Source of the DNA: Salinicola sp.
Lineage (GTDB): Bacteria > Pseudomonadota > Gammaproteobacteria > Pseudomonadales > Halomonadaceae
Length of the DNA stretch: 60,789 nt
Assembly: GCA_002695065.1 (NCBI GenBank)
Contig: NZNW01000012.1
Location: 1-60,789 of the forward strand
Direction: 5' to 3'
Position numbers and translations under genes: made by a program. Position 1 is the stretch's first letter. Every line of letters begins with the position of its first letter. This document shows positions 24,471 through 44,594 of the stretch, piece by piece. The notes beneath the pieces were generated by a model. The model was not told the DNA's origin. It saw only the letters and a program-made list of their open reading frames with translations, and ran no database searches.

Positions 24471-24556
24471 TCGGGATCTTGCCTCGCGCTCGAGTTCTGC
24501 AAAACTAGCTTACTGTTCGACGACCGCCCCCTAGTGGGGCGGTCTTCCTCTGTCTC
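24471..24556 (+). ncRNA. Candidate 3'UTR-derived regulatory RNA with porin-pairing seed
   Basis: The 3'UTR of the small secreted-protein gene ends in a terminator-like hairpin. The segment AACTAGCTTACTGTTCGA at 24503-24520, one base before the hairpin, is the exact reverse complement of 44571-44588 in the porin leader. Release of this ~80-base tail, or its presence on the mRNA, could pair with the porin transcript beside its ribosome site. No dedicated promoter was identified; transcription from the upstream gene is assumed. Confidence 0.4.
24522..24550 (+). terminator. Terminator of the small secreted-protein gene
   Basis: A 9-bp perfect GC stem (GACCGCCCC at 24522-24530, GGGGCGGTC at 24536-24544) with a 5-base loop is followed by a pyrimidine-rich tail TTCCTCTGTCTCT. 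It lies 51 bases after the stop. Confidence 0.7.
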
Positions 24557-24590
24557 TGCCACTTCTGCCACTGCCACCTCTGCCACTTCT
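24555..24590. repeat. Imperfect 9-bp tandem repeat (TCTGCCACT)
   Basis: TCTGCCACT occurs at 24555-24563, 24564-24572 and 24579-24587, the last two separated by GCCACC. It lies between the terminator and the 3' end of nudE. Confidence 0.7.
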
Positions 24591-24623
24591 CGTTCTCTGG
24601 TGGCTACCGGTGTCGGCCACGCC

Positions 24624-25217
24624 TCACCACCAGCTTTCGGACTCCCGCTCGCTGCGCAGTTTTTCGCGAGCGATGAACAGGGCGGCGATGGCGCGGCCCT
24701 CATGGAAATCGTCCCGCGCCAGCAGGCCGGCGATGTCGTCGATGGCATAGGTTTCCACGATCAGTGGCTCGGGCTCATCGCCTTCCAGGCGCCTCTCGTA
24801 GAGATCGCTGGCCAGCATCACCTGGATACGGTGATTCATGTAGTTGGGCGCCAGCGACAACTCCACCAGAGGCTCGATGCGGTTGGCACCGTAGCCGCAC
24901 TCTTCCATGAGCTCTCGATTGGCCGCCGTGATGATGTCCTCGCCCGGGTCGACCAGCCCCTTGGGCAGGGTCAGCGTATATTCATCGAAGCCCGCCGCGT
25001 ATTCCCGGATCAGCAAGACGTGATCGGGGTCGGGCATGGCCACCAGCATCACCGCGCCGCGGCCCTTGCCCTTCAAGCGTTCGAAAGTGCGTTCCGCGCC
25101 GTTGGCGAAGCGCAGATCGAGCGATTCGATGGCAAACAGTTCGCTCTGGGCGACGTTGCGCCGCGCGAGAAGCGTCGGCCGGGTCAAGACGGGCGGGGGG
25201 GAATCTGTCGGCGCCAT
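24624..25217 (-). CDS. nudE: ADP compounds hydrolase NudE
   Basis: NudE is a Nudix hydrolase that cleaves ADP-ribose, NADH and diadenosine polyphosphates. The 197-aa protein has a full Nudix box (G-x5-E-x7-REL-x-EE-x-G) at GLVDPGEDIITAANRELMEECGYG. I place the start at the ATG at 25217 (MAPTDSPPP), which has GGAGG four bases upstream, although the frame is open to 25304. It is divergent from yrfG, as part of the gene set nudE-yrfG-hslR-hslO-pckA also seen in enterobacteria. Confidence 0.93.
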   Translation of the reverse strand: MAPTDSPPPVLTRPTLLARRNVAQSELFAIESLDLRFANGAERTFERLKGKGRGAVMLVAMPDPDHVLLIREYAAGFDEYTLTLPKGLVDPGEDIITAANRELMEECGYGANRIEPLVELSLAPNYMNHRIQVMLASDLYERRLEGDEPEPLIVETYAIDDIAGLLARDDFHEGRAIAALFIAREKLRSERESESWW

Positions 25218-25358
25218 GGGGCCTCCGTGCATCGGGCGGGTTGCACTGGGTACAATAATCGACGCTTGTCTCCGTGGGAAATGACCCTGATGCCTCTTGG
25301 CCATGAAAGGGGGAGCCCCGCGCGAGGATCTCTTTCACTGACGGCCGGGATTCTTCCA

Positions 25359-26018
25359 ATGATCGACTGGAGCGCCATCGATACCGTTTTTCTGGACATG
25401 GACGGTACGCTGCTCGACCTCCACTTCGACAGCCATTTCTGGCTCGAGCACCTGCCGCGTCGCTATGTCGAGCTGCACCGGCTCGACGACTCTCATCGCA
25501 CGGCGCTGGAGTCGCGTATCCGCGACGCCAGAGGAACGCTGGACTGGTACAGCCTGGCCTACTGGAGTCGCGAACTGTCGCTGGATATCGTCGCGCTCAA
25601 GCGCGAGGTGGCACACCTGATCGGATGGCGGGCCGATGCACTGGCCTTCATGGAGTGGCTGAAGGCGTCACCGGTGGATGTGGTGCTGGCGACCAATGCC
25701 GATCGCGAGAGCCTCGGTCTCAAATTGCCGTTGACCGGGCTGGATCGCTATGTCGATCGCATTGTGTCGTCGGCGGATGTCGGTGCTCCCAAGGAGCAGC
25801 TGGCGTTCTGGTCGGCCATGCAGGCGCTGCACCCCTTCGACCCGGCACGCAGCCTGTTCATCGACGACAACGCCGAGGTGCTCGAAAGTGCCCGGCGATA
25901 CGGCATTCGCCACCTGCTGGGCATCCATCAACCGGATAGCCGCAAGGTCGGGAGCGCCCATCCGTCGTTCACCGTCGTCGAGCAGTTTGCATCGCTTTTG
26001 CCGGTGCGGCCGGGTTGA
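25359..26018 (+). CDS. yrfG: GMP/IMP nucleotidase YrfG (HAD superfamily)
   Basis: A 219-aa HAD hydrolase with motif I FLDMDGTLLDLHFD at residues 10-23, a threonine motif II in VVLATNA, a conserved lysine in GAPKEQ, and the acidic motif LFIDDNAEVL. E. coli YrfG dephosphorylates GMP and IMP. The frame is open far upstream to 24534, but homology begins at MIDWSAIDTVFLDMDG, so the ATG at 25359 is used. Together with nudE and hslR the order is conserved with E. coli. Confidence 0.9.
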   Translation: MIDWSAIDTVFLDMDGTLLDLHFDSHFWLEHLPRRYVELHRLDDSHRTALESRIRDARGTLDWYSLAYWSRELSLDIVALKREVAHLIGWRADALAFMEWLKASPVDVVLATNADRESLGLKLPLTGLDRYVDRIVSSADVGAPKEQLAFWSAMQALHPFDPARSLFIDDNAEVLESARRYGIRHLLGIHQPDSRKVGSAHPSFTVVEQFASLLPVRPG

Positions 26019-26044
26019 AGCGGGCACTGCCCACCCCCATCTAC

Positions 26045-26183
26045 GCTCTGTCTGAAAAATGCCTGCGCTCGCCCATACGGCGTTAAAAATCGACTCAAAA
26101 TGCTCATTTACACCTCGTAAACTCCGCTGTTTCGTCAATTTTTGCCTTGTCTGGCCATCGCTCGCCGATTTTTCAGACAGAGC
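26045..26183. mobile_element. MITE-like palindromic element between yrfG and hslR
   Basis: 139 bp bounded by perfect 16-bp inverted ends GCTCTGTCTGAAAAAT (26045-26060) and its complement (26168-26183). Internal inverted pairs include AAAAATCGAC with GTCAATTTTT, and a TTTAC-ACCTC-GTAAA hairpin. The whole unit can fold on itself. It contains no gene and ends 28 bases before the hslR start. Confidence 0.85.
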
Positions 26184-26211
26184 TATCTAGACCGGTCGAG
26201 GTAATTGACCC

Positions 26212-26604
26212 ATGAGTGAAACCGTACGTATCGACAAGTGGCTGTGGGCGGCGCGGTTCTTCAAGACGCGTCAACTGGCCAAGAAAGCGATCGAGGGCGG
26301 CAAGGTCCGCTACAACGGCAGCCGCGTCAAGACCAGCCGCAACGTCGAGGTCGGCGCGCTGATCGAGCTGCCGCAAGGCTGGGACAACGTGACCGTCGAG
26401 GTCCTCGCGCTCTCGGATCAACGCCGCGGCGCCCCGGAGGCCCGGGCACTCTACGCCGAGACGCCCGAAAGCCTCGACCGACGGGAGCGGGAAGCGCATC
26501 AGCGCAAGCTGGCCAACCAGGTGATGCAACCGCCGATCAAACGACCCGACAAGCGCCAGCGTCGCGATATCCATCGGTTCCAGCGCCAGCACACCGATGA
26601 CTGA
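26212..26604 (+). CDS. hslR: Ribosome-associated heat shock protein Hsp15
   Basis: Hsp15 binds dissociated 50S subunits carrying stalled peptidyl-tRNA and helps recycle them. The 130-aa protein has an S4 RNA-binding domain at residues 1-70 ([32 protein letters not shown]) and a basic C-terminal tail ([13 protein letters not shown]). It precedes hslO as in E. coli. A palindromic element sits in its immediate upstream region and could affect expression. Confidence 0.95.
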
Positions 26605-26687
26605 TGCCCCACGCTCGTGACGTCGCCCACTACCTGCCCCCACCGGGCGATCCTGCGATCCTCCCGGTGCCCGACGAGATCCGATCC

Positions 26688-27560
26688 ATGAACGATGAAA
26701 TCCAACGCTTCCTGTTCGACGACACCAACGTACGCGGCGAGATCGTGCAGCTGGAAGCCGCCTACGGCGAGGTACTCGCGCGCCAGGACTATCCCGCGCC
26801 GATTCGCCATCAACTGGGCGAGCTGTTGAGCGCTGTCGCCCTGCTGACCGAGACCGTCAAGCTCGATGGCACCGTCAGTCTCGAGGTGCGCGGCAGGCAG
26901 GGGGTCGATGTGCTGATGGCCGAATCCAACCCTGGCGGTCAGCTGCGAGCCATCGCGCGGTACGACGAAAATCAGATCTTCGCCGACGATGCCTCGCTGC
27001 GGCAGCTGGTGGGCGACGGGCAGATCGTGATCACCCTGGATCCCGCCGAAGGCAACCGCTATCAGGGGATCGTGGCGCTGGAGCACGATCAGCTCGCCGG
27101 CTGCCTGGAGGCCTATTTCGCCCAGTCGGAACAGCTGGCGACACGGCTGTGGCTGAGCGCCGACGGCCAACGCAGTGCCGGGCTGCTGCTCCAGCAACTG
27201 CCGGATGATGCGTCCAGCAAGGACCCCGATGCCTGGGACCGGGTGGTGCACCTGGCGGCGACGATCACCGCCGACGAGATGCTGACGCTACCGGCGCAGG
27301 ACGTGCTGTATCGCCTCTTCCATGAAGAGACCACGCGCGTCTTCGACCCCAAGGCGCTGGCGTTCGGCTGCACCTGCTCGCGGGAGCGCATTGCCAACGC
27401 GCTGCACACCTTCGGCGCCGACGAATTGCGAAGCATTCTGAACGAGCAGAAAGCGGTCGATACACAGTGCCATTTTTGTCATACGCAGTACCATTTTAGT
27501 GCGGCCGACATCGAGGCGATCATCGACTCTCCCGAGGCGCCCTCGCCGACGCTTCACTAG
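26688..27560 (+). CDS. hslO: Redox-regulated chaperone Hsp33
   Basis: Hsp33 is a cytoplasmic holdase activated by oxidation of four zinc-binding cysteines. The 290-aa protein has the redox switch at the C-terminus: Cys228-x-Cys230 (FGCTCS) and Cys261-x2-Cys264 (QCHFC). The N-terminal domain starts at [20 protein letters not shown], and the ATG at 26688 matches family starts; the frame is open upstream to 26604. It is likely cotranscribed with hslR and ends at the terminator at 27637. Confidence 0.95.
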
Positions 27561-27636
27561 AGAGGCCGCCACTCGCCGAGCGGAGCGGCTCGCCGGGGCA
27601 TGAACAGGGCTTTGATCAAAGCCGAATTGACATCGG

Positions 27637-27667
27637 GCGTCCAGCGTTTGCGCGCTGGGCGCTTTTT
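27637..27667 (+). terminator. Rho-independent terminator after hslO
   Basis: A 10-bp stem with one G-T pair (GCGTCCAGCG at 27637-27646, CGCTGGGCGC at 27653-27662) is followed by TTTTT. A weak promoter-like pair TTGCGC (27648-27653) and CATAAT (27670-27675), spaced by 16, overlaps it and may serve pckA. Confidence 0.8.
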
Positions 27668-27804
27668 GCCATAATGGCGATCCTTTTTCGCCTGCCATGG
27701 TGTCGAGATCGCCGGTCCCATCGAGAGCGGTGTCGTCGGGATGGCGGGTTTTCGACGCTGTGAAACGATACGAAAGCAGAGGCCTTCGAGCCCAGGATTG
27801 GATA

Positions 27805-29376
27805 ATGACCACCTCTCAAGCCATCTCCCAGGCTGCCGGCGCGAAAGCGCATACCCATTTGACCGCGGCCGAGCTGGTCGAATATGCCCTGGCGAGGGGC
27901 GAAGGCGTGCTGGCCGACAATGGCGCACTGGTGGTGGAAACTGGCGAGCGCACCGGCCGGTCCACGCTGGACCGTTTCATCGTCGAGGAGCCCTCGACCT
28001 CGGATCTGATCGACTGGGGCCAGGTCAACCGTCCGATCGGGCCGGACGTGTTCGATGCGCTGTGGGAGCGGGTGGAGGACTATCTGGCGGGGGGAGAGAC
28101 CTTCGTTTCGGAACTCCACGTCGGTGCCGATCCGGAATACTACCTGCCGATTCGCGTCGTCACGCAGAGGGCGTGGCACAACCTTTACGCACGCAATCTG
28201 TTCGTGCGTCCCGAAAACTGGAACCCCAAGGACAAGAGCGAGTGGACGGTGCTGAGCGCACCTGATTTCGTCTGCGAGCCGCAGCGCGATGGCACTCGCT
28301 CCGAAAGCACGGTGATGATCAATTTCGCCCGCCGCCGAGTGCTGCTGGCCGGCATGCGCTACGCGGGTGAAATGAAGAAGGCGATGTTCTCGGTTCAGAA
28401 CTTTCTGCTGCCGGAGAAGGACGTGTTGCCGATGCACTGCAGCGCCAACGTCGGCGAGGACGGCGAGACCACGCTGTTCTTCGGCCTCTCCGGCACCGGC
28501 AAGACCACGCTGTCGGCGGACCCCGAGCGCTATCTCATCGGCGATGACGAGCACGGCTGGGGAGAGGGCACCGTCTTCAACTTCGAAGGGGGGTGCTACG
28601 CCAAGACCATCGATCTGTCACGCAAGAACGAGCCGATCATCTGGGATGCCATCCGCTTCGGCACCGTGCTGGAAAACGTGGTTCTCACCGAGGACCGCGT
28701 TCCCGATTATACCGATGACAGTCTGACCCAGAACGGCCGGGCGGGGTATCCGCTCGAGTTCGTCGCCAAGCGGGTGGAGGAGAATCGCGCTGGCGAACCC
28801 AGCGCGATCATCTTCCTGACCTGCGACATGAGCGGGGTACTGCCACCGGTCTCGCTGCTCTCCAAGGAAGCGGCTGCCTATCACTTCCTCTCCGGCTACA
28901 CGGCCAAGGTCGGGTCCACCGAGATGGGCTCCACCAGCGGTCTGGAAGCGACTTTCTCGACCTGCTTCGGGGCGCCGTTCTTCCCGCGCCCGGCCCACGA
29001 ATACGCCGAACTGCTGATCAAGCGTATCGAAGCGTTCGAATCCCGGGTCTATCTGGTCAACACGGGGTGGAGCGGCGGCGCTTACGGTCAGGGCGGCAGC
29101 CGCTTCAGCATCCCGACCACCCGGGCGATCATCCGCGCCATTCAGGAGGGAGACCTGAAGGACGTCGAGACGCGCCATATCGAAGGGCTGAACCTGGATG
29201 TGCCGGTGGCGGTGGAGGGCGTCGATGCCAGACTGCTCGATCCGCGCGATGCCTGGGAGGATCGGGAGGCCTATCGAGAGCAGATGAATGCGCTGATCGC
29301 CAAGTTCACGGACAACTTCACCAAGTTCGACGATGTCGATTCGGCGATTCTGGCCGCCGGCCCGCAGAGGCTCTGA
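27805..29376 (+). CDS. pckA: ATP-dependent phosphoenolpyruvate carboxykinase
   Basis: PckA converts oxaloacetate and ATP to phosphoenolpyruvate, the entry to gluconeogenesis. The 523-aa protein carries the P-loop GLSGTGKT at residues 227-234, the metal motif GDDEHGW, and [10 protein letters not shown], all diagnostic of the ATP-type enzyme. The frame stays open 36 codons upstream, but the ATG at 27805 with AGGA upstream fits family length. It pairs functionally with acs (55360) for growth on acetate, although the two are far apart. Confidence 0.96.
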
Positions 29377-29439
29377 CCGGGCCCGTCGAAAGACGACATT
29401 CTGCCGCAAGCGCGCTGCCGGCCCGTTCGGCACTGCATC

Positions 29440-29469
29440 AAGGGGATGGCCAGCGGCCATCCCCTTTCG
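29440..29469 (+). terminator. Terminator after pckA
   Basis: A perfect 12-bp stem (AAGGGGATGGCC at 29440-29451, GGCCATCCCCTT at 29455-29466) with a 3-base loop lies 63 bases after the stop; the stem's final TT continues into a third T. Confidence 0.7.
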
Positions 29470-29554
29470 ATTCCGGCGTTGCGATGCGCCGGAGAGTGAG
29501 CCCCGTGCGTCGCTGTGCTAACGTGGCGCGATCTTGTTCATCGTGATGATTTTC

Positions 29555-31909
29555 ATGTCCAACACCCAATCCGCAATCACCGCGCTGATCGCCGACGAGC
29601 TCGGCGTTCGCCCCCCTCAGGTTCATGCCGCCGTCGAACTGCTGGATGGCGGCGCCACTGTCCCGTTCATCGCCCGCTACCGCAAGGAAGTCACCGGCGG
29701 ACTCGACGACAGCCAGCTCCGCACGCTGGAAGAGCGCCTGCGCTACCTGCGTGAAATGGAGGAGCGGCGCGATGCGATCGTGCAGGCGATCGACGAGCAG
29801 GGGCAGATGACCGAGGCGCTCCGTGCCGATCTGCTGGCGGCGACCACCAAGCAGCGGCTGGAAGACCTCTATCTGCCTTATCGGAAGAAACGCCGGACCA
29901 AGGCCCAGATCGCCCGCGAAGCCGGACTGGAACCCCTGGCCGATCGCCTGCTGGCCGAGCCCGGTCTGGACCCGGAGCGCGAGGCGGCAGCGTTCATCGA
30001 CAGCGCCACCGGCGCCAGCCATGGTGTCGAGGACGCCAAGGGCGCGCTGGACGGTGCCAAGCAGATCCTGATGGAGCGCTTCAGTGAAGAGGCCGAGCTG
30101 GTCGGTCGGCTACGCGAGCGACTGTGGGAGGATGGCCAGCTGCGTGCACGGCTGGTCAAGGGCAAGGAGGCGGAAGGCAGCAAGTTCTCGGACTATTTCG
30201 AGCACGACGAGGCGCTGGCCAAGACGCCATCGCATCGTGCGTTGGCGATGTTCCGGGGGCGCAAGGAGGGGGTGCTGGCTCTCTCGCTGGTCATGGCCGG
30301 CGAGGACGACGCGCCCATCCATCCTGCCGAGGTGGCGATCGCCCGCCATGTGGGTATCGACCTGGGTGCCGAGCAGGCCGCCTCTCGATGGCTGAAGGAG
30401 GTGGTTCGCTGGACCTGGCGGGTGAAGCTCTACACCCATCTGGAAACCGAACTGATGGGCCGTCTGCGGGAGCGGGCCGAGCAGGAGGCGATCGATGTCT
30501 TCGCCGCCAACCTCAAGGATCTGTTGCTGGCGGCACCCGCCGGACCGCGCACCACGCTGGGGCTCGACCCCGGTCAGCGCACGGGCTGCAAGGTCGCCGT
30601 CGTCGATGCCACCGGGCGTTTCCTGGAGCAGGCCGTCATCTATCCGCACGCGCCGCAGAAGCGCTGGGACGAAGCGCTGGCGACCCTGGCCGCGCTGGTG
30701 GAGCGCCATGACGTGTCGCTGGTGGCGATCGGCAACGGTACCGCCAGCCGTGAAACCGACAAGCTGGCCGCCGAACTGGTCAAGCGCGTGGCGCCACGCC
30801 AGCTCACCAAGGTGATGGTGAGTGAAGCCGGTGCATCGGTCTACTCGGCATCGGAGCTGGCGGCCAGGGAGTTTCCCGACCTCGATGTATCGATTCGCGG
30901 GGCGGTGTCGATCGCCCGGCGACTGCAGGACCCGCAGGCCGAGCTGGTCAAGATCGATCCCAAGTCGATCGGTGTCGGCCAGTATCAGCACGATGTCTCC
31001 CAGGTGAACCTGTCCCGGAGCCTCGAGACGGTGATCGAGGACTGCGTCAACGCGGTGGGCGTGGATCTCAATACCGCCTCCAGCGCGCTGCTCTCCCGGG
31101 TATCCGGCCTGAGCACGATGCTCGCCGACAACATCGTTGCGCGGCGCGACCGCGAGGGGCCGTTTCGCACTCGCCAGGAGCTCCTCGGCGTCGACAGATT
31201 GGGTCCCAAGACTTTCGAGCAGTGTGCGGGCTTTCTGCGCATCATGGGCGGCACCAATCCGCTCGATGCCAGCGCGGTGCACCCTGAGGCCTATCCACTG
31301 GTGGCGCGCATTGCCGAGCGCAACGGGCGCGAACTGGGCGGGCTGATCGGAGACAGCCGCTATCTCAAGACGCTCAAGCCCTCGGACTACGTCGACGAGG
31401 CGTTCGGGGTGCCGACGGTCATCGATATCCTGGCTGAACTCGACAAGCCGGGCCGCGATCCCCGCCCGGAATTCAAGGCAGCGACCTTTCGCGAGGGCGT
31501 GGAGAAGATCGGCGATCTCGAGCCGGGCATGCTGCTGGAGGGTGTCGTCACCAACGTGACCCATTTCGGCGCCTTCATCGATATCGGCGTGCATCAGGAC
31601 GGGCTGGTGCATATCTCCGCGCTGGCCGACAAGTTCGTCGACGATCCGCGGCAGGTGGTCAAGGCCGGCGATATCGTCAAGGTCAAGGTGCTCGAGGTCG
31701 ACGTGGCGCGACAGCGGATCGGATTGACGATGCGACTGGGTGACGCACCCGGTGAGAAAGCGGCCCCCGGCGAGCGCCGGTCGGGCAGCGGCAAGCCTCG
31801 TGGCGGGGCGCGGGGTCGTCAGCCGCGACAGGGCGGCAATGATCGCCAGCCCGCGCAGCCGGGCGGCGTGATGGCCGAGGCGCTGCTCAAGGCGCAGCGA
31901 CGACGCTAG
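29555..31909 (+). CDS. tex: Tex family RNA-binding protein
   Basis: Tex is a conserved cytoplasmic nucleic-acid-binding protein linked to transcription and stress or toxin gene expression. The 784-aa product has the N-terminal Tex region (VPFIARYRKEVTGGLDD), a YqgF/RNase-H-like domain near TTLGLDPGQRTGCKVAVVD (about residues 330-460), helix-hairpin-helix repeats (NTASSALLSRVSGLS), and a C-terminal S1 domain (MLLEGVVTNVTHFGAFIDIG). The tail is basic and Gly/Arg-rich. I chose MSNTQSAITAL at 29555; two upstream Met codons (29534, 29546) are less likely. Confidence 0.95.
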   Translation: MSNTQSAITALIADELGVRPPQVHAAVELLDGGATVPFIARYRKEVTGGLDDSQLRTLEERLRYLREMEERRDAIVQAIDEQGQMTEALRADLLAATTKQRLEDLYLPYRKKRRTKAQIAREAGLEPLADRLLAEPGLDPEREAAAFIDSATGASHGVEDAKGALDGAKQILMERFSEEAELVGRLRERLWEDGQLRARLVKGKEAEGSKFSDYFEHDEALAKTPSHRALAMFRGRKEGVLALSLVMAGEDDAPIHPAEVAIARHVGIDLGAEQAASRWLKEVVRWTWRVKLYTHLETELMGRLRERAEQEAIDVFAANLKDLLLAAPAGPRTTLGLDPGQRTGCKVAVVDATGRFLEQAVIYPHAPQKRWDEALATLAALVERHDVSLVAIGNGTASRETDKLAAELVKRVAPRQLTKVMVSEAGASVYSASELAAREFPDLDVSIRGAVSIARRLQDPQAELVKIDPKSIGVGQYQHDVSQVNLSRSLETVIEDCVNAVGVDLNTASSALLSRVSGLSTMLADNIVARRDREGPFRTRQELLGVDRLGPKTFEQCAGFLRIMGGTNPLDASAVHPEAYPLVARIAERNGRELGGLIGDSRYLKTLKPSDYVDEAFGVPTVIDILAELDKPGRDPRPEFKAATFREGVEKIGDLEPGMLLEGVVTNVTHFGAFIDIGVHQDGLVHISALADKFVDDPRQVVKAGDIVKVKVLEVDVARQRIGLTMRLGDAPGEKAAPGERRSGSGKPRGGARGRQPRQGGNDRQPAQPGGVMAEALLKAQRRR

Positions 31910-32028
31910 GGAGTGTTGGCGTTTCACGCACGCTCGCGTCGGAACGACAACACTTCTGGTACCGGGTCGCGAAGTCGTTAGCCTTGAAAGCGCTATCGTC
32001 GGCTCCATAATGAGGTTTGGCTCGCGGT

Positions 32029-32059
32029 GGCTCCGGCGACAGCATTGGCGTCCGGAGCC
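32029..32059 (+). promoter_or_regulatory. Leader hairpin upstream of gshA
   Basis: A perfect 8-bp stem GGCTCCGG (32029-32036) and CCGGAGCC (32052-32059) with a 15-base loop lies about 58 bases before the gshA start. Its role, as tex terminator or leader structure, is not decided by sequence. Confidence 0.35.
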
Positions 32060-32116
32060 GTCGGCGCACGGACAAACGGGGGAGCAGAGCTCTTCCCACG
32101 AAATAAGGTGTTGAGC

Positions 32117-33724
32117 GTGTCTGATCAACTCGCCACGAACGTCGGCCAACTGATGGCGCCGGCCCAGAAGGGATTGCTCGGTCGTCTACGGCGGGGCATC
32201 GAGAAGGAAGGGCTGCGTGTCGATTCCAAGGCCGCCATCGTGCAGACCCTCCATCCGCACTCGCTCGGCTCGAAGCTGACCCACCCCCACATCACGACCG
32301 ACTACTCGGAGGCGCTGCTCGAGTACATCACCCCGGTCTATTGTCGTCCTGCCGATGCGCTCTCATTCCTGGGCGATCTGGTCCGCTTCACCTATCGCCA
32401 GCTCGACGACGAGTGGCTGTGGCCGGCCAGCATGCCGGCGCGGCTCTCCGGCAACGACAGCGTGCCGATCGCCGACTACGGCACGTCCAACGTCGGCACC
32501 ATGAAGCATGTCTACCGCAAGGGCCTGGATGTACGCTACGGCCGCATCATGCAGTCGATTGCCGGCATTCACTACAACGTCTCTCTGCCGGATGACATCT
32601 GGCCGCTGCTGCGGGAACGGGAGGGGCGGCAGGGCGAATCGCTGCAGGGGTATCGCTCGGCCCGCTACTTCGATCTGATCCGCAACTTCCGCCGCAACAG
32701 CTGGCTGCTGCTCTATCTGTTCGGTGCCTCCCCGGCGCTGGACCGCAGCTTCCTGGGGGAGGAAGGCGGCGACAATCGCTGCGACAAGCTGAAGTCGATG
32801 GGCCAGCGCACGCTCTACGCGCCCTACGCGACCAGCCTGCGGATGTCCGATCTGGGCTATCAGAACAAGGTCCAGGAGCAGTTGAAGATCTGCTTCAACT
32901 CGCTCTCCAATTATGTCGGCACGCTCCGTCACGCCATCTCCGCCGAGTGGCCGGATTATCGCCGGATCGGTGTGGAGGTGGACGGCGAGTGGCGACAGCT
33001 CAGCGCCAACATTCTGCAGATCGAAAACGAGTACTACAGCGACATCCGTCCGAAACGGGTGGCGCGACACGACGAGACGCCCACGCAGGCTCTGGAAGCG
33101 CGCGGCGTCGAATATATCGAGGTGCGTTGTCTCGATCTGAATCCGTTCCTGCCGCTGGGAATCGATGAGCCGCAGATGCGTTTCATGGATACCTTCCTGC
33201 TCTGGTGCCTGCTCTCCGAGAGTCCCTGGATTCCGGACGAGGAGTGCGACCGGCTGGACGACAATCGCCGGCTGGTGGTCGAGCGCGGCCGCGATCCGGA
33301 TCTGAAGCTGCGGATTGGCGATCGTCACGTGCCGCTGCGGACTCGGGGCCACGAGATCGTCGATGGGCTGCGCGAGGTCGCCGGCCTGCTCGACGCCATC
33401 GAGGGCGACTGTCTTCACGCTGCCGCCATCGAGACGATTGCCCGGCGGCTCGACGACCCGGAGCTGACCCCCTCGGCGCAGATGCTGCGGGCTCTGGAGG
33501 CGCATGGCGGTGAGTGGACCGATTTCATTGCCGATCTGGCCAAGGAGCAGGGGCGTCATTGGCGCTCGACGCCGATGGACGAGTCGCGTGCCGAACTCTT
33601 TTCCCAACTGGTCGAGACGTCGCACCAGCAGCAGCACGACATCGAAGCCGAAGACCGGGTGTCGTTCGCACGCTTCATCACTGATTATTTCCAGCGGGCG
33701 AGGGAACCTCGTTCGGCGGCGTGA
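32117..33724 (+). CDS. gshA: Glutamate-cysteine ligase
   Basis: GshA makes gamma-glutamylcysteine, the rate-limiting step of glutathione synthesis. The 535-aa protein belongs to the proteobacterial class I family. Motifs are GIEKEGLRV near the N-terminus, DYSEALLEYITP, the region GTMKHVYRKGLDVRYG...IAGIHYNVSLP, and LQIENEYYSDIRPKR. The likely start is GTG at 32117 (SDQLATNVGQL follows), with AAGGTG 7 bases upstream; the open frame extends 30 codons further without a ribosome site. Confidence 0.95.
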   Translation: MSDQLATNVGQLMAPAQKGLLGRLRRGIEKEGLRVDSKAAIVQTLHPHSLGSKLTHPHITTDYSEALLEYITPVYCRPADALSFLGDLVRFTYRQLDDEWLWPASMPARLSGNDSVPIADYGTSNVGTMKHVYRKGLDVRYGRIMQSIAGIHYNVSLPDDIWPLLREREGRQGESLQGYRSARYFDLIRNFRRNSWLLLYLFGASPALDRSFLGEEGGDNRCDKLKSMGQRTLYAPYATSLRMSDLGYQNKVQEQLKICFNSLSNYVGTLRHAISAEWPDYRRIGVEVDGEWRQLSANILQIENEYYSDIRPKRVARHDETPTQALEARGVEYIEVRCLDLNPFLPLGIDEPQMRFMDTFLLWCLLSESPWIPDEECDRLDDNRRLVVERGRDPDLKLRIGDRHVPLRTRGHEIVDGLREVAGLLDAIEGDCLHAAAIETIARRLDDPELTPSAQMLRALEAHGGEWTDFIADLAKEQGRHWRSTPMDESRAELFSQLVETSHQQQHDIEAEDRVSFARFITDYFQRAREPRSAA

Positions 33725-36588: not shown

Positions 36589-36648
36589 TGGCGTCTTACC
36601 GGCCATTGATGCCACGACGAGGATCTCCTCGCCCACAAGAAAAGGCTC

Positions 36649-38910
36649 ATGCTCGATACCCTTCGCCGCATCGTTCAGGAAGTCAACGGCGCACGTAGCC
36701 TGGATGCCGCGCTGGCCACCATGGTGCGCCGAATCCGGAAGGCGATGCGTACTGACGTCTGCTCCATCTACCTGTTCGACCGCGAACGCGATCGACTGGT
36801 GCTGATGGACACGATCGGCCTGCGCACCCAGGCCGTGGGTGTCGTGACCCTGCGCCTGGGAGAGGGGCTGGTCGGGCTGGTCGGGCAGCGCGAAGAGGCG
36901 CTGAATCTGGAAGACGCGCCGTCCCATCCGCAGTTCCGCTACTTCGCCGAGACGGGAGAGGAGCGTTTCTCGAGCTTCCTCGGCGTGCCGATCATCCATC
37001 AGCGGCGGATGCTCGGGGTCCTCGTCGTCCAGCAACAGGAGAAGCGGCGTTTCGACGAGGGCGACGAGGCGTTCCTGGTCACGATGGCGGCACAACTGGC
37101 GGGCGTTCTGGCCCATGCGCTGGTATCGGGGACGCTCAGTCGGCCCACGGGGCCCGACGGACAGGCGATGTTTTCCGGCGTGGCGGCGTCGCCGGGAATG
37201 GCGATCGGCGAGATCGTGGTGATCGCCCCGCCTGCCGACCTGGATAGCGTGCCGGACCTGATTCCGACCGATCCGGATGCCGAGGTGGTCCGCCTCCATG
37301 CCGCGCTCGCCCATGTGCGGGAGGATATCCGCAAGGCGGGAGCCCGCCTGGCCAGCCGAATCTCTACCCAGGAGCTCGCGCTCTTCGACGTCTACCAGCA
37401 GATGCTGGGAGATGCCGCGCTGGGCAACGAGGTGGAGAAGCGGATCCGGGAGGGGCAGTGGGCACCGGGAGCGCTGGCCGATGTGGTGCGTCGCCATACG
37501 CAGTATCTGGAGCGGGTGGATGACGGCTATCTGCGCGAGCGGGCGGCCGATATCCGGGATCTGGGCCGCCGGGTGCTGGCCCACCTGCAGGAAGGCAACG
37601 AGCGGACCCCCTCGACCTATCCCGACAACGCCATTCTGGTCGGCGACGAGATCAGCGCGGCGACGCTGGGCGAACTGCCCAGGAAGCGCCTGGCGGCGCT
37701 GGTCTCGATTCGTGGCTCCAGCAACTCCCACGTCGCCATCCTGGCCCGCGCCATGGGCATCCCCACCGTGCTGGGCATGGTCGACCTGCCGCTGCCGAGG
37801 ATCAACGGGGCCAAGGCGATCCTCGATGGCCATCGGGGGCGGCTGTTCGTGCGGCCCGATGCCCAACTGGCCAAGCGCTACGAACGCCTGATCAAGGAGG
37901 AGCAGGCGCTGGCGGAAGTGCTGGAGCACGAGCAGCACCTGCCCAGCGAGACCTCCGACGGTCACGTCATGCCGCTCATGGTCAATACCGGGTTGGCGGT
38001 GGATGCCGTCGCCCAGCTCAAGCCGCGTGTCAGCGGGGTGGGGCTCTACCGGACGGAAGTCCCGTTCATGATGAACGAGCGCTTCCCCAGCGAGCAGGAG
38101 CAGACCCGGCTCTATCACGAGCAACTGGCCAGTTTTGCCCCGCTTCCCGTGGTCATGCGCACACTCGACATCGGTGGCGACAAGGACCTGCCGTATTTTC
38201 CGATCAACGAGGCCAACCCGTTTCTCGGCTGGCGTGGCATCCGCGTCACGCTGGACCATCCGGAAGTGCTGATGGTCCAGATGCGCGCCATGCTGATGGC
38301 ATCGCGAGAGCTGGACAATCTGCGCATCCTGTTGCCGATGATCACCAGCGTGGACGAGGTCGATACCGCGCTACGCCTGCTGGCGCGCGCTCGCGAGGAG
38401 CTTGCCGAGGAGGGCATCGAGGTCGCCTCGCCCAAGGTCGGGGTGATGATCGAGGTGCCCGCGACACTCTACCAGCTGGCTGCGCTGGCGGACCGGGTCG
38501 ACTTCTTCTCGGTGGGAAGCAACGACCTGACCCAGTATCTGCTCGCGGTGGACCGCAACAACGCGAGGGTGGCCGGGCTCTACGATGCCTGTCACCCGGC
38601 TGTGCTCAACGCCCTGTCGCGTCTTGCGCAGGAGAGCCGGCAACTGCAGATTCCCGCTTCTGTCTGCGGTGAGCTGGCCGGGGATCCCGCCGGGGCACTG
38701 CTGCTGATGGGCATGGGCTTCGATGCGCTGTCGATGAATGCGCCCAGCCTGCCAAGGGTGCGGGCCGCGATCCGGCGCGTCAGTATCGGCGATGCTCGCG
38801 CGCTGGTGTCGGAGACACTGTCGCTACCGACCACGGCGGTGGTCAGGGCGCACCTTCGTCAGCGTCTGACCGACTGGCAGATTGGCCACCTGCTGCCGCC
38901 TCAGGACTGA
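36649..38910 (+). CDS. ptsP: Nitrogen PTS enzyme I (EI-Ntr)
   Basis: EI-Ntr takes phosphate from phosphoenolpyruvate and passes it to NPr in a regulatory phosphorelay. The 753-aa protein has an N-terminal GAF domain (about residues 1-160), a PEP-utilising swivel domain with the phosphorylated His361 in SSNSHVAILARAMGIP, and the C-terminal TIM-barrel with GVGLYRTEVPFM, GWRGIR, VGSNDLTQYLLAVDRNN and the acid-base cysteine in ASVCGELAGD. The stop overlaps the convergent NRDE gene by ten bases. Confidence 0.95.
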   Translation: MLDTLRRIVQEVNGARSLDAALATMVRRIRKAMRTDVCSIYLFDRERDRLVLMDTIGLRTQAVGVVTLRLGEGLVGLVGQREEALNLEDAPSHPQFRYFAETGEERFSSFLGVPIIHQRRMLGVLVVQQQEKRRFDEGDEAFLVTMAAQLAGVLAHALVSGTLSRPTGPDGQAMFSGVAASPGMAIGEIVVIAPPADLDSVPDLIPTDPDAEVVRLHAALAHVREDIRKAGARLASRISTQELALFDVYQQMLGDAALGNEVEKRIREGQWAPGALADVVRRHTQYLERVDDGYLRERAADIRDLGRRVLAHLQEGNERTPSTYPDNAILVGDEISAATLGELPRKRLAALVSIRGSSNSHVAILARAMGIPTVLGMVDLPLPRINGAKAILDGHRGRLFVRPDAQLAKRYERLIKEEQALAEVLEHEQHLPSETSDGHVMPLMVNTGLAVDAVAQLKPRVSGVGLYRTEVPFMMNERFPSEQEQTRLYHEQLASFAPLPVVMRTLDIGGDKDLPYFPINEANPFLGWRGIRVTLDHPEVLMVQMRAMLMASRELDNLRILLPMITSVDEVDTALRLLARAREELAEEGIEVASPKVGVMIEVPATLYQLAALADRVDFFSVGSNDLTQYLLAVDRNNARVAGLYDACHPAVLNALSRLAQESRQLQIPASVCGELAGDPAGALLLMGMGFDALSMNAPSLPRVRAAIRRVSIGDARALVSETLSLPTTAVVRAHLRQRLTDWQIGHLLPPQD

Positions 38911-39674
38911 GCCATCGTGGGCACCGCCAGGCGTGTCGCCTCGCCGATCGGCGCACCGCCCGCCGCGAAGCGCTGCTCCTCCAATGTCGTTTCCGCCGTC
39001 GAGACCGAGACCAGCGTCGTGGCTCGCGTCCCGTACTCCTGTCCTTCGATGAACGCCGCCGAGAGCCGGCGCTCGAGGTCCCGGCCAACCCCGGTGTGGG
39101 GGAGCTCGTCGAGCGATGCCTGGCGCGTATCGCCCATGGCCGAGCGCATGCCGACCCGCCAATCCCTCGTCGTCAGCGCCTGTCGCAGCGCCTCCCGAGC
39201 CTGAACGACCTTGGGCCAGGGCGTATCGAGACCGGCATTGGACAAGCCGTGCAGACCGGGCGACACGAGCCGCCAATGGGTCTCATGGCGACTGTGATGA
39301 AGCGTCCACATCCGGGTATCCGACATCACCAGCAGATTGAATCCGGCGTAGGGAGCGGCGCCATCCGATGCCAGCGTCTCCAGCCACACCGCCGGATCGT
39401 CGACCTCGAGAGCCTGGCGCACGAGTTCGCCGCGGCTGGGGGCGCCGTCGGGCGTTGGCGCCTGCTCCTCCCTGACGTTGGTCAGGGCGGCCACCCTCGT
39501 GGGCGTCGCTGCCAGCCAGGTTCCCCCGCCAACCAGGTCCCGGCCGCCGATCAGGCTGCTGTCGGGCCAGCGATGCAGCGCTTCGGCCGGGCGGGCGTGG
39601 AACTCGTCGCGATTGGCGGCGAGGCGCAGTCTCACCGCTGCCTGGGGCTGCCAATCGAACACGATCAAGCACAT
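38901..39674 (-). CDS. NRDE family protein (TANGO2-like)
   Basis: A 257-aa protein beginning MCLIVFDWQPQ and carrying the eponymous AANRDEFHARP motif (residues 19-29). Also present are LIGGRDLVGGGTWLA and the TNVRE motif of the family. The N-terminal Cys2 is reminiscent of Ntn hydrolases. The bacterial role is unclear; the human homologue TANGO2 has been linked to heme and lipid metabolism. It overlaps the end of ptsP tail to tail. Confidence 0.88.
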   Translation of the reverse strand: MCLIVFDWQPQAAVRLRLAANRDEFHARPAEALHRWPDSSLIGGRDLVGGGTWLAATPTRVAALTNVREEQAPTPDGAPSRGELVRQALEVDDPAVWLETLASDGAAPYAGFNLLVMSDTRMWTLHHSRHETHWRLVSPGLHGLSNAGLDTPWPKVVQAREALRQALTTRDWRVGMRSAMGDTRQASLDELPHTGVGRDLERRLSAAFIEGQEYGTRATTLVSVSTAETTLEEQRFAAGGAPIGEATRLAVPTMAQS

Positions 39675-39907
39675 GGGGTGATCTCCAGCGAGAGGGCGAT
39701 GGGGGGATGTCGGGGCGCCGCCATGACACGGCCCCGTCGGCAGCGTACCATAAGCGCGCTAGCGACCCGTGCCAGCTCTCCGCTCCGTTGCCTCGTGTCT
39801 TACAGGACCCGTCACATGCCCACATCCCTCTCGTCCTCCATCGCCAGGCCGGCGGCAGGCGTTCTTGCTCCCTCGACACCGGTGTCCGTCAGGCGAGGAG
39901 GCGTCCG

Positions 39908-40699
39908 ATGCTGACGGCTATCGCGATCTATCTCCTGGTCGGCGCCGCTGCGGGTCTGATGGCGGGCGTGTTCGGTATTGGCGGGGGCATCGTCATCGTC
40001 CCCGCGCTGGTATTCACCTTTCTCGCCCAGGGGGTCGATCCCGCAGTCGTCGCACATCTGGCGGTAGGGACGTCGCTGGCGACCATCGTGGTCACCGGTG
40101 CCTCTTCCGCCTGGGGGCACTGGCGGCGGGGCAGCGTGAGGCAGGACTGGCTTCGGCTGATGATGCCGGGATTGCTGATGGGTGGGGTTCTCGGCGTGCT
40201 GCTTGCCTCGGTACTGCCCGGTCATGCGCTGACGCGTCTGTTCGGGATTTTTGCGGTGGTGATGGCGCTGAAAATGCTGCTGACTCGCCCGCCCGCGACC
40301 CTGGGGCGGGAGCCGCGACGCTGGCCGATGACCTCGGCCGGGGCATTGATCGGCGGCGTCTCGACGCTGTTCGGCGTCGGCGGCGGGGTCATGTCGGTGC
40401 CGTGGCTGTCGCGTTTCACCAGCCGGATGACGGAAGCGGTGGGAACCTCGTCGGCCATCGGCCTGCCGATTGCGTTGATCGGCACCGCGACCAATGTCGT
40501 CGTGGGGTGGGGCGAGATGACCCTGCCGACGGGGGCGACCGGCTATGTGATGTGGCCGGCTTTTCTCGGCCTGATGGTGACCAGTGTTCCGATGGCCCGG
40601 GTCGGCGTCAAGGTCGCCCATGCATTGCCTGCCAGGACGCTGCGACGTATCTTTGCCCTCCTGCTGATCGTAGTAGGGATCAAGCTGATGATCGGCTAA
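39908..40699 (+). CDS. TauE/SafE family sulfite/organosulfonate-type permease
   Basis: A 263-aa protein of about eight membrane helices with the duplicated family motif GVFGIGGGIVIVPAL (residues 18-32) and GGVSTLFGVGGGVMSVPWL. TauE/SafE proteins export or import sulfur anions and small organic acids; the substrate is unknown here. GGAGG lies before the ATG at 39908. The TAA stop coincides with the first bases of the palindromic repeat at 40697, so the repeat may have set or abutted the C-terminus. Confidence 0.9.
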   Translation: MLTAIAIYLLVGAAAGLMAGVFGIGGGIVIVPALVFTFLAQGVDPAVVAHLAVGTSLATIVVTGASSAWGHWRRGSVRQDWLRLMMPGLLMGGVLGVLLASVLPGHALTRLFGIFAVVMALKMLLTRPPATLGREPRRWPMTSAGALIGGVSTLFGVGGGVMSVPWLSRFTSRMTEAVGTSSAIGLPIALIGTATNVVVGWGEMTLPTGATGYVMWPAFLGLMVTSVPMARVGVKVAHALPARTLRRIFALLLIVVGIKLMIG

Positions 40700-40877
40700 G
40701 GAAACACTGCATAAATGTCTGCGCAGGTGAATCGGCTTCGTTGCGCGGTGCTGGAGCGCCAGCCCGGCCGGAATCCTCACATATAACCCATAGGCTCCGG
40801 TTCCTGCGCCCCGTGCGCCTTGCGCCGGAGTGCCGCCCACGTCATCCTGCTCGCCGATTTATTCAGCGTTTCCCTTA
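40697..40877. mobile_element. MITE-like palindromic element, copy 2
   Basis: About 181 bp, with ends TAAGGAAACACTGCATAAAT (40697-40716) and ATTTATTCAGCGTTTCCC (from 40857). It is inverted relative to the copy at 5971-6119 and about 30 bp longer in the middle. It ends 25 bases before the lgt start, near lgt's ribosome site AAGGAG. Confidence 0.8.
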
Positions 40878-40902
40878 ACTCTTTCGTAGCCAAGGAGAAA
40901 GC

Positions 40903-41709
40903 ATGCTGGCTTACCCCGAGATCGACCCGGTGGCCGTTTCGTTGGGCCCGCTCAAGGTGCACTGGTATGGGCTGATGTATGTCGTCGGCTTCGTGGGGGC
41001 CTGGTGGCTGGGGCGCCTGCGTGCCGACCGCCTGGGGCTCAAGCGCGACGACATCGGCGACATGCTGTTCTACGGGGCGCTCGGGGTGGTGCTCGGCGGC
41101 CGTATCGGCTATGCGCTGTTCTATGGTCTCGACCGGTTCGTGGACAACCCGCTGTGGATATTCCAGGTCTGGGACGGCGGCATGAGTTTCCATGGAGGGC
41201 TGTTGGGGGTGCTGCTGGCCGCCTTGCTGTTCGCGCGCAAGCACGGCCTGGCGTTCTTCCAGCTCACGGATTTCATCGCGCCGCTGGTACCGATCGGCCT
41301 GGGGGCGGGGCGCATCGGGAATTTCATCAATCATGAACTGCCCGGCCGCGTGACGGACGTCCCCTGGGCGCTGGTCTTCCCGGGAATGGGAGGGCAGGGG
41401 CGCCATCCCTCCTCGCTCTACCAGTTCTTTCTCGAGGGTGTGGTGCTGTTCGGCGTGCTGTGGATGGCGTCCCTGACCCCGCGCCGACGAGGCTTCGTCT
41501 CGGGGCTCTTCCTGATCTGCTACGGCGCGTTTCGGTTCCTGTCGGAGTTCTTCCGCCGCCCGGATCCGCAACTGGGGTTCATCGCCTTCGACTGGCTGAC
41601 CATGGGGCAGCTGCTGTCACTGCCGATGGTCATCGCTGGTGTCGCGCTGATCGCCTGGTCGCGTCACAATGAGGTGGACGACGCCCGCCCGGGGCAGCCC
41701 GCGCGCTGA
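40903..41709 (+). CDS. lgt: Prolipoprotein diacylglyceryl transferase
   Basis: Lgt transfers diacylglycerol from phosphatidylglycerol to the lipobox cysteine of prolipoproteins in the inner membrane. The 268-aa protein has seven predicted helices, the start [23 protein letters not shown], and the signature [16 protein letters not shown] (about residues 134-149). Late [14 protein letters not shown] is also conserved. AAGGAG precedes the ATG. It is followed by thyA and folA, a common gammaproteobacterial order. Confidence 0.96.
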
Positions 41710-41821
41710 GCGAGCGTCGTCGAGTGGTTGGCCGCCGAGGTTTCAAGCGGCCTTGAAATCGAGAGTGTTTCGATGGGCTCGTCGCCTGCGCCGAGCCTGT
41801 CACTGGTAAAGGAGCGTGCCC

Positions 41822-42616
41822 ATGCGGCCTTATCTCGACTTGATGCAGCGCGTGCTGGATAGCGGCGTTGAAAAAGCCGATCGGACCGGCGTCGGGACGC
41901 TTAGCGTGTTCGGCCACCAGATGCGCTTCGATCTGGGTGAAGGATTCCCCCTGGTAACCACCAAGAAGCTCCATCTGCGCTCGATCATCCATGAGCTGCT
42001 GTGGTTTCTCCGGGGCGATACCAATGTCGCCTACCTGCACGAGCACAACGTCTCGATCTGGGACGAGTGGGCGGATGCCGACGGCGATCTCGGCCCCGTC
42101 TACGGCTACCAGTGGCGAAGCTGGCCGACCCCCGACGGCGGGCATATCGACCAGATCGCCAGGCTGGTCGAGCAGATACGCCGCAACCCGGACTCCCGCC
42201 GACATATCGTCTCGGCCTGGAACCCCGCGCTGGTCGATGAAATGGCACTGCCGCCTTGCCATGCGCTGTTCCAGTTCTACGTCGCCAACGGCGCGCTCTC
42301 CTGCCAGCTCTACCAGCGCAGTGCCGATATCTTCCTGGGCGTGCCGTTCAACATCGCCAGCTACGCGCTGCTGACGCACATGATCGCCCAGGTCTGCGGG
42401 CTCCAGCCCGGCGAGTTCGTGCATACCTTGGGCGACGCCCATCTCTATCTCAATCACCTCGATCAGGCCCGGCTGCAGCTCTCGCGTGAACCGTTGGCGC
42501 TGCCGACCCTGAAGCTGAATCCGTCGATCGATGATCTTTTCGATTTCCGCTTCGAGGATATCGCCATCGAGGGATACGAATCCCATCCTTCCATCAAGGC
42601 GCCCATTGCCGTATGA
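41822..42616 (+). CDS. thyA: Thymidylate synthase
   Basis: ThyA methylates dUMP with methylene-tetrahydrofolate, giving dTMP and dihydrofolate. The product has 264 aa, the same length as E. coli ThyA, with the nucleophile Cys146 in [19 protein letters not shown] near the N-terminus, and [15 protein letters not shown] ends about seven bases before the ATG at 41822, which is preferred to the GTG at 41816. The stop overlaps folA by four bases, coupling dihydrofolate production to its recycling enzyme. Confidence 0.97.
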
Positions 42617-43158
42617 GTGACCTGACATCGCCAATGAAGCCGGAAACGCCGATCGCCATGATCGCGGCGCTGTCCCGCAATCGCGTCATCGGCGTGGGCA
42701 ATCGGTTGCCCTGGTACTTGCCGGAGGATCTCAAGCGATTCAAGTCGCTCACGCTTGGCAAGCCGCTGGTCATGGGGCGCAAGACGTTCGAGTCGATCGG
42801 TCGACCGCTGCCTGGGCGCCTGAATATCGTGATCACCCGCGACCGGCACTATCATCGCGAGGGAGTCAGGGTGTGCCACTCCCTGGACGAGGCGCTGCAA
42901 CTTGCCGATCATCAAGCGGTGATCGACGATGCGGCCGAGATCATGGTGATGGGCGGTGGAGAGATCTATCGCCAGGCGCTGCCCGTCGCCGACAGGCTCC
43001 AGCTTACCGAGGTGGACGTCGAGATCGAAGGGGACGCATTCTTCCCCGACTTCCTGAACGGGGAGTGGCAGGAGGTGGAGCGTTCCGTGATGCCGCCGCA
43101 GCCAGGTCAGCCGGACTATGCTTTCGTCCAATACCGTCGGGCGGCCGGTTCTGGCTGA
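42613..43158 (+). CDS. folA: Dihydrofolate reductase
   Basis: FolA reduces dihydrofolate (produced by ThyA next door) to tetrahydrofolate. The 181-aa protein has [31 protein letters not shown], with the catalytic acid in LPEDL, then the NADPH-binding stretch [16 protein letters not shown] and [13 protein letters not shown]. About ten extra N-terminal residues precede the usual start, because the ATG overlaps the thyA stop (ATGA). Confidence 0.96.
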
Positions 43159-43261
43159 GTCTCGGCAGGGCCATACGGTCAGGAGGGATCGAGTGCCACT
43201 CGTCAGGATGCGCGATGGCATGTCCCTACGTAGATTGAGAGGACTTGAGAGGAGTTGTGCC

Positions 43262-44188
43262 GTGTTGACGGATCGAACACAGGCGCTCCTGGCTGCCATC
43301 GAGCACCAGGTCGAAGCGGGCCAAGCCGCTTTGGAAGCCGAGAAAGAGCGGTGCAAGGCCTTGGAGGCTGAGAATCGAGCCCTCAAGGAGCGCCTGCTGG
43401 CGCTGGCCGAACTGGACCCCATGGTGGTCAAGGGGCAGGATCACAGCGAAGATCCGGACGGCGGTACGCGCGCCCGTGGCCTGGGCAATCTGGCATTTCG
43501 GCGGCCGCGGTCGAAACCGGGTGATGACGCTGGCACTAGAGCGGGTCGTCACGCTCCGGTCTCCCCGCTGCAGCGGCTGACGTCTTCGCCTTCCCATGAA
43601 AGGGCGTTTTCCGAGACCGATCGCCATGTGGATGTCGCGCGTGCCGAACCGGTAAATACCGCGCCACCTGACGCTGAACCCGAATCAAGCCCCTCTCGAA
43701 CGCCTTCCGATGTCCCCCTGAAGCCTTCCGCTGCGGAACCGGCGTCTGCCAATGTTGAGTCGCCGCCGCAGAACTCACTGGCATTCGGCGCCGAGCACGA
43801 AGTGCCGTCGCCCCATGCACTGCTCGCCCAGTGGTACAAGCGCTACCCCAAGGCCTTCTTCAAGGGGCATACGCGGCCGCTGAAAACCGGCATTCACCTC
43901 GATCTCTGCGAGGTCGAACCCTGGCCCGAGAAGTTGGTCCGTCGGGCATTGGCCTGCTATGTGCACCTGCCGCGCTACCTGAAATCGGTCCGGGAAGGAG
44001 CGAATCGGGTGGATCTGGCGGGGGAAGACAGCGAGGTGGTGACCGCCGAGGAGGCCAAGCACGCCAAGCGGCAGCTGGAAGCGTTGCAGAAGAAGCAGAA
44101 AGCTCGCGAAACACAGCAGCGATCGGAAAAGCTGGACCGCAAGATCGGGGCGTTGCTGGCCAAGCATGGTCAACGCCCGCAGGAGTGA
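43262..44188 (+). CDS. ProQ/FinO domain RNA-binding protein with long N-terminal extension
   Basis: A 308-aa protein. Residues 1-50 form a coiled coil (ALLAAIEHQVEAGQAALEAEKERCKALEAENRALKERL split into heptads), residues 55-180 are disordered and Pro/Ser-rich, and residues ~180-270 hold the ProQ/FinO fold (LLAQWYKRYPKAFF, RPLKTGIH, LVRRALACYVHLPRYLKSV, GANRVDLAG). The tail is basic and helical. ProQ proteins bind structured RNAs and aid sRNA-mRNA pairing; in E. coli ProQ the domain is N-terminal. The GTG at 43262 has AGAGGAG seven bases upstream. The porin gene follows after 415 bases. Confidence 0.87.
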   Translation: MLTDRTQALLAAIEHQVEAGQAALEAEKERCKALEAENRALKERLLALAELDPMVVKGQDHSEDPDGGTRARGLGNLAFRRPRSKPGDDAGTRAGRHAPVSPLQRLTSSPSHERAFSETDRHVDVARAEPVNTAPPDAEPESSPSRTPSDVPLKPSAAEPASANVESPPQNSLAFGAEHEVPSPHALLAQWYKRYPKAFFKGHTRPLKTGIHLDLCEVEPWPEKLVRRALACYVHLPRYLKSVREGANRVDLAGEDSEVVTAEEAKHAKRQLEALQKKQKARETQQRSEKLDRKIGALLAKHGQRPQE

Positions 44189-44428
44189 CACGGGGCGAGC
44201 CCTGGGCGGTTGAACTGAATTGAACTTTGGTCTCGATGGGCGTGCGAGGCAGGAAGGGAGAGAAGTGTTTGCCCCTGCCTCCTTGCCTTGACAGGGCATG
44301 TCATGAGACTGTCACGGCCCGTGGCTAGGCTGCCGGCAGCCGGTTTGTGCCGACGATGCCACGAATCCCGGCAGTAAAAAGAAGCAGAACCGGTGGGAAT
44401 CGCAGGGAACGAAAACAGTGTTTTTTTC

Positions 44429-44458
44429 TTGTTGCGTTCCTCTAACGTCCGGTATAAG
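44429..44458 (+). promoter_or_regulatory. Candidate sigma-70 promoter of the porin gene
   Basis: TTGTTG (44429-44434) and TATAAG (44453-44458) are 18 bases apart. Initiation about seven bases later would give a leader of roughly 140 nt. Both hexamers deviate from consensus. Confidence 0.4.
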
Positions 44459-44570
44459 GTTTCCGGGCGAGCATTGGACAATAACAAGGCTTCCAAGTTC
44501 CGCAGCCGTCATTCGTTCGCGTGACGAAGCTGGTTGAAGGTGCCGAAGCCGACTGCATCTGCAGACACGA

Positions 44571-44594
44571 TCGAACAGTAAGCTAGTTAAGGAA
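44571..44594 (+). promoter_or_regulatory. Porin mRNA leader site complementary to 24503-24520, next to the ribosome site
   Basis: TCGAACAGTAAGCTAGTT (44571-44588) is the exact reverse complement of 24503-24520. The ribosome site AAGGAAC starts at 44589, directly after it. An RNA pairing here would be placed to block ribosome access or change mRNA decay. Confidence 0.5.

Follow-up and report, generated by a model that had tools for sequence, protein, structure and literature searches.

A porin leader site in Salinicola sp. complementary to the 3' untranslated region of a small secreted-protein gene: a candidate docking site for base-pairing RNAs

Can the 3' end of one mRNA control the translation of a porin encoded 20 kb away? 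The question is raised by a stretch of 60,789 nucleotides of Salinicola sp. (contig NZNW01000012.1; hereafter the window), which belongs to a 4.68-Mb genome of the family Halomonadaceae, here named G000. The 18-nt segment AACTAGCTTACTGTTCGA at positions 24503-24520, in the 3' untranslated region (3'UTR) of a gene for a small secreted protein, is the exact reverse complement of positions 44571-44588, in the leader of a porin gene, and both lie on the sense strands of their genes. The explanation that we tentatively put forward is that base-pairing RNAs dock at a conserved site in the leader, and that the 3'UTR segment at 24503-24520 acts as a lineage-specific repressor.

The first segment lies 33-50 nt past the stop codon of the small gene, the host mRNA of this 3'UTR (24105-24470, plus strand), which encodes an acidic protein of 121 residues with a signal-peptide-like start, and it stands one base before a hairpin with stem 24522-24530/24536-24544. 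The second segment (plus strand), which is the proposed docking site, ends at 44588, and is followed by AAGGAAC (44589-44595, plus strand), read from the sequence as the Shine-Dalgarno region, and by the ATG at 44604 of the proposed target, a gene of the Pfam family Porin_4 (44604-45728, plus strand). The pairing region thus spans -33 to -16 relative to the porin ATG, near the Shine-Dalgarno. An initial annotation had claimed the exact complementarity, the orientation of both segments as sense sequences on the plus strand, the position of the first one base before the hairpin and the adjacency of the second to the ribosome site, and all of these were borne out. The 18-bp duplex has a predicted energy of -27.9 kcal/mol, and opening costs 5.9 kcal/mol in the leader and 2.2 kcal/mol in the 3'UTR; both sides are predicted to be partially accessible.

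Against this stands the possibility that the match is fortuitous: the leader would be conserved for another reason, such as another small RNA or porin translation itself, and the 3'UTR segment would be kept as a small hairpin and as an arm of the terminator-like structure. The chance expectation bears on this alternative in two ways. The initial annotation had estimated fewer than 0.05 such matches per window, which is too low, since 60 Markov-simulated windows per order, in which distant exact inverted pairs of at least 18 nt were counted, gave 0.1 (order 1), 0.18 (order 3) and 0.2 (order 5) pairs per window. A second pair of this kind is in fact present in the window (20475-20492/23756-23773), GC-rich and inside long open reading frames, and serves as a chance baseline. 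In contrast, an 18-nt match between a 3'UTR and a leader has an extrapolated expectation of 2.5e-4 per window, on the basis of 100-nt 3'UTRs against 60-nt leaders, 50 crude gene calls and an order-2 model of intergenic sequence. The match is notable for one window, although a scan of thousands of windows would yield a few.

The porin leader site in Salinicola and related genera

The leader 18-mer is identical in 17 of 18 Salinicola genomes, the remaining one (G180) showing two changes, and 51 of 275 genomes of the family match it with up to two mismatches. Among 30 loci fetched from other genomes in this search, 28 are porin leaders and two are unrelated single matches. A dispersed repeat or a DNA site bound by a protein at both places was rejected as an explanation, and we regard it as extremely improbable; a DNA site could also show the inverted orientation, but G000 contains only two copies of the 18-mer with up to three mismatches allowed, and 28 of the 30 loci fetched in the family search are porin leaders.

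In named genomes, 31 exact stretches were found, belonging to Salinicola, Chromohalobacter, Modicisalibacter, Halomonas sp. and one other gammaproteobacterium. A cross-genus alignment was built from 75 of 77 leaders (L011 and L121, too short, were dropped), which comprise 46 distinct sequences and include some genomes under two handles. A porin start lies downstream in 72 of the 75 leaders, the exceptions being L117, where the stretch ends, and L084 and L128 (G186). These last two, which appear to be one strain, show a deletion right after the leader 18-mer that takes out the porin Shine-Dalgarno and start codon, and this is either a feature of the strain or an assembly error. Across genera the middle of the leader is variable, while a block around CTGC..GCAG and TCGAACAGTWAGC before AAGGA are constant, and the docking site is among the most conserved blocks of the leader. 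Furthermore, nine of 20 additional genomes contain a recognizable site, roughly GATCGA(A)ACAG..AAGCTAGT, in some cases with insertions or changes; the other 11 showed no porin at the strict cut-off used.

No conserved fold covering the site was found with RNAalifold in the 46 distinct leaders, which showed small stems only (-5.1 kcal/mol), and the fold of the G000 leader is not more stable than shuffled sequences (z +0.97). In the fold predicted for G000, the 5' end of the leader pairs with GGAAC and with some bases of the 18-mer. An RNA that pairs as proposed could then open this fold, expose the ribosome site and so activate the porin; when the RNA was co-folded with a leader truncated at 44531, the first bases of the site following the duplex were predicted to be unpaired. 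We consider activation very improbable, because the leader fold is neither conserved nor more stable than expected, and a duplex that ends one base before the Shine-Dalgarno normally blocks the ribosome.

Directly upstream of the porin, a gene at 43118-44188 (plus strand) encodes a ProQ/FinO-domain protein (PF04352). The initial annotation had pointed to this ProQ-family neighbor, and the wider comparison agrees: each of the 18 Salinicola genomes contains a single PF04352 match, at the porin locus, and the gene was found upstream of the porin in all 17 Salinicola loci and in 29 of 31 named loci, the two exceptions being stretches with no space for it. In other genera it was present at 26 of 28 loci, the two exceptions being short, and at eight of nine more distant loci, L222 showing none; these sets share genomes. 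Being a neighbor is no proof that ProQ acts on the porin mRNA. In addition, a conserved imperfect inverted repeat, AACGAAAACAGTGTTTTTTTCTTGTTGCGTTC, is located at 44408-44439, just upstream of the promoter-like TATAAGG of the porin; it is near-invariant in the 18 Salinicola leaders and may be a regulator site.

A bfd 3' untranslated region in a second genus

Partners for the leader site were searched in four genomes with GCTWACTGTTCGA, allowing one mismatch, which gave 34 matches (four of them without a locus) against 39 for the reversed control. One match, in G122 of the genus designated g10, lies in the 3'UTR of a gene that we take, from its protein sequence, to be bfd, before a presumed bfr, and is followed by a terminator with a run of seven T (T7). 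In the bfd-bfr spacers, eight of 10 g10 genomes carry (C/T)TAAC(T/C)GTTTGAATT ahead of a T7-tailed hairpin, and in five of the eight the longer TTAACTG stands in front; G125 and G127 lack the element. Upstream of bfd in G122 is ATGAGAATCATTTGTATTC, which resembles a Fur box. The g10 element itself (L150 1466-1638; also L171, L172 and L194-L199) is composed of a seed-like stretch, a small AU-rich hairpin and the T7 terminator.

The g10 bfd 3'UTRs are predicted to pair with their cognate porin leaders with energies of -35.2 to -22.5 kcal/mol. Among 300 shuffled seeds per genome, none was as good in G122, G123, G128, G126 and G124, three in G120 and four in G121, and the bfd segment of G122 was better than all 13300 background windows. 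A covariance model of the element, searched in the 275 genomes under stricter filters, gave eight strong matches, all in g10 and all sequences used to build the model, as well as six weak matches in g23, at other loci. No Rfam match was found on the element in the three loci scanned, which contain one weak match elsewhere. Since a second genus thus aims a 3'UTR at the same site, which speaks against a fortuitous match in Salinicola, the leader becomes a credible small-RNA target, and this raises the odds for the Salinicola 3'UTR.

The bfd-bfr spacers of eight Salinicola genomes showed no g10-like element. Other partners in Salinicola were searched in G000, G176, G182 and G007 with a wobble-tolerant 13-mer, a pattern that misses shorter or mismatched seeds. 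The 20 matches comprised the four leaders, the 3'UTR of the window and 15 others (L153 included), among which reading of the loci showed no terminator-proximal context like that of g10; two, L214 and L217, lie in short frames, and since open frames are weak evidence in GC-rich DNA, some of the 15 may still be partners.

The 3' untranslated segment among Salinicola species

The small gene was found in 16 of the 18 Salinicola genomes, in pieces in G189, with no match in G177 and G180, and its 121-residue product matches no Pfam family at E<=0.001. Nine gene-bearing genomes form one clade (support 100/100) in which a segment related to 24503-24520 precedes the GC-rich hairpin (24522-24544, plus strand), whose stem covaries among the nine species. 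In Chromohalobacter (g5) and g6, 14 loci with the 3'UTR of the small gene, one of which was incomplete, showed no homologue of the segment.

Changes were counted on the tree for the nine species and for a set of six (G000, G179, G181, G185, G186 and G187), omitting two columns with a gap in G000: column 53 (two changes in nine species, one in six) and column 64 (four and two). The six species show 13 changes in the 18 segment columns, of which the 10-column core (24506-24515) accounts for four, whereas the 19 columns that precede the segment have 35; with nine species the counts are 29, 13 and 41, respectively. Only two core columns vary among the six, with A/G facing U and C/T facing G, and in both the base can still form a standard or wobble pair with that of the leader. 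Pairing is kept in part in six of the nine clade members and lost in the three closest relatives of G000.

Pairing energies were ranked in both directions, with relatives that are not independent of each other. In the forward ranking, the segment of each species was tested on 60-nt windows taken from the 20-kb stretch of that species (for G000, the 60-kb window). Only two of 4050 windows were at least as good in G000, and in a larger background none of 13320 was; among the relatives, the number of windows at least as good, of 1330, was one in G186, five in G181, eight in G187, 18 in G179 and 77 in G185. The two G000 windows are both the antisense strand of the segment itself, which carries the letters of the leader 18-mer. 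On this account the 3'UTR, or an antisense RNA produced by read-through from the convergent NUDIX gene, might act as a decoy that titrates whatever binds the leader site; such a decoy is highly improbable, as the exact copy occurs only in G000 and the read-through is hypothetical. In the reverse ranking, the leader was compared with 36-nt windows (6738 for G000, and 2213 or 2214 for the others), and the windows as good numbered six in G000, 26 in G187, 78 in G185, 83 in G186, 106 in G181, 227 in G179, 375 in G173, 616 in G176 and 841 in G182.

Several results weigh against regulation by this 3'UTR. The seven other gene-bearing Salinicola genomes lack the segment, by inspection. Core changes in G176, the sister of G000, and in G173 and G182 break two or more pairs while the leader 18-mer is unchanged, which is the very case, one segment altered without a matching change in the other, that the initial annotation had named as contrary to its proposal; in the forward ranking, 498 (G173), 580 (G176) and 798 (G182) of 1330 windows pair equally well. 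Reverse rankings are weaker than forward ones, with 1.2-10% of windows as good in the relatives that keep the pairing, and nine of 13340 windows of the larger background pair with the G000 leader as well as the segment does. In g10, 53 of 300 shuffled seeds were as good as the seed of G119, and 316 of 13320 windows match or exceed the G122 segment in pairing with its leader. In the free leader, most of the Shine-Dalgarno is predicted to be paired. Finally, the hairpin after the segment lacks the U-tract of a Rho-independent terminator, the tail after its stem being TTCCTCTG, which upholds the caution about a weak T-tail given in the initial annotation. This call is made by reading the sequence, as the terminator scan, which reported three terminator-like sites and not this hairpin, overlooked the evident T-rich terminator downstream of the porin as well. 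A search of 23900-24700 gave no sigma-70-like promoter; in the lack of both a U-tract and such a promoter, a short RNA would need to be released by processing. The window has no match to a known Rfam family above the gathering score, and two weak matches in 24400-24700 both fall below it.

A further point on the same side is a stem of four pairs that RNAalifold predicts within the segment; its second pair is AU in four, GC in three and GU in two of the nine sequences. The changes in G176, G173 and G182 are compatible with this local stem, so the sisters preserve a hairpin and break the pairing with the leader, and in several relatives the stem of the downstream hairpin is lengthened by the end of the segment. 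The conservation of the core can thus be read in two ways, as pairing with the leader or as a small hairpin formed locally. Seven of nine species also keep the TT of its loop, which the hairpin alone does not require, and together with the full 18-base match in G000 this favors pairing with the leader. On the tree, the pairing would have been either lost twice or regained by G000. Judged by its distribution, the 3'UTR side is young, and conservation of the leader site reaches much further than that of any partner in a 3'UTR, which favors a fortuitous match. Because there is neither a U-tract nor a promoter-like site, and the pairing is lost in the three closest relatives, we hold coincidence on the 3'UTR side to be almost as likely as the regulation proposed.

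Upstream of the small gene, CTAGGTTTTGTATAG at 24001-24015 is strongly conserved in most of 15 aligned Salinicola genomes and may be the promoter of this gene. Elsewhere in the window, a perfect 26-nt palindrome, TCGAGCCAGCGAATTCGCTGGCTCGA, is found at 19720-19745.

Interpretation and comparison with known systems

Under the docking-site explanation, the leader at 44571-44588 would be a conserved site at which base-pairing RNAs reach the porin ribosome site. The 3' end of the small secreted-protein mRNA, from about 24500 to the end of the hairpin near 24545, would pair with it in trans through 24503-24520, and the duplex, by covering positions -33 to -16 relative to the start codon, would block ribosome loading, so that porin synthesis would be lowered when the small-protein gene is expressed. 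We infer the stable 3'UTR RNA, its release by processing, the help of ProQ or Hfq and the repressive effect. The reading of the initial annotation, an antisense RNA from this 3'UTR acting on the porin, is supported in part: a conserved leader element at the ribosome site and the g10 bfd 3'UTR speak for it, while the loss of pairing in three relatives and the lack of a U-tract and promoter do not. Small-RNA control of the porin is credible from the sequences compared, because the leader element is conserved without a conserved fold and a bfd 3'UTR of g10 is predicted to pair at the same site.

A broader and more doubtful proposal is that the Halomonadaceae carry an old docking site beside a ProQ-family gene, for which lineages independently evolved different 3'UTRs, that of a Fur-linked bfd, responding to iron starvation, in g10 and that of a small exported-protein gene in some Salinicola species. 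An old target would then be served by young regulators that can replace one another. If true, an old mRNA target site would outlive its partners and be targeted by different 3'UTRs in different genera, and the birth and loss of small-RNA regulation could be watched among sister species, with a perfect 18-nt match in G000 and loss of the pairing in three close relatives. It would also be a first lead on small-RNA control of a Salinicola porin; no report on this system was found in the titles and the beginnings of abstracts of the open-access papers searched on Salinicola, Halomonas, Kushneria and Chromohalobacter.

Among known systems, CpxQ and MicL are small RNAs derived from 3'UTRs, with U-tailed terminators and proven dependence on Hfq. 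The Salinicola case resembles them in that the 3'UTR of an envelope-related gene is the proposed source of a trans-acting RNA, and differs in its hairpin, which has no such tail. The g10 bfd 3'UTR is similar to the Fur-controlled small RNAs of the RyhB/PrrF type in its Fur-box-like upstream site, intrinsic terminator and conserved seed-like stretch; however, it is the 3'UTR of bfd instead of a free gene, and its predicted target is a porin. The closest experimental precedent found is MalH, an RNA from the 3' end of malG in E. coli that pairs with the ompC and ompA mRNAs and lowers them (PMC8081044). In both cases the RNA source, proven or proposed, is the 3' end of an mRNA for an envelope or transport function, and the target is a porin mRNA, that of general porins for MalH. 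MalH was demonstrated experimentally, whereas the Salinicola case consists of complementarity and partial conservation, and the host mRNA, the organism and the pairing region are different.

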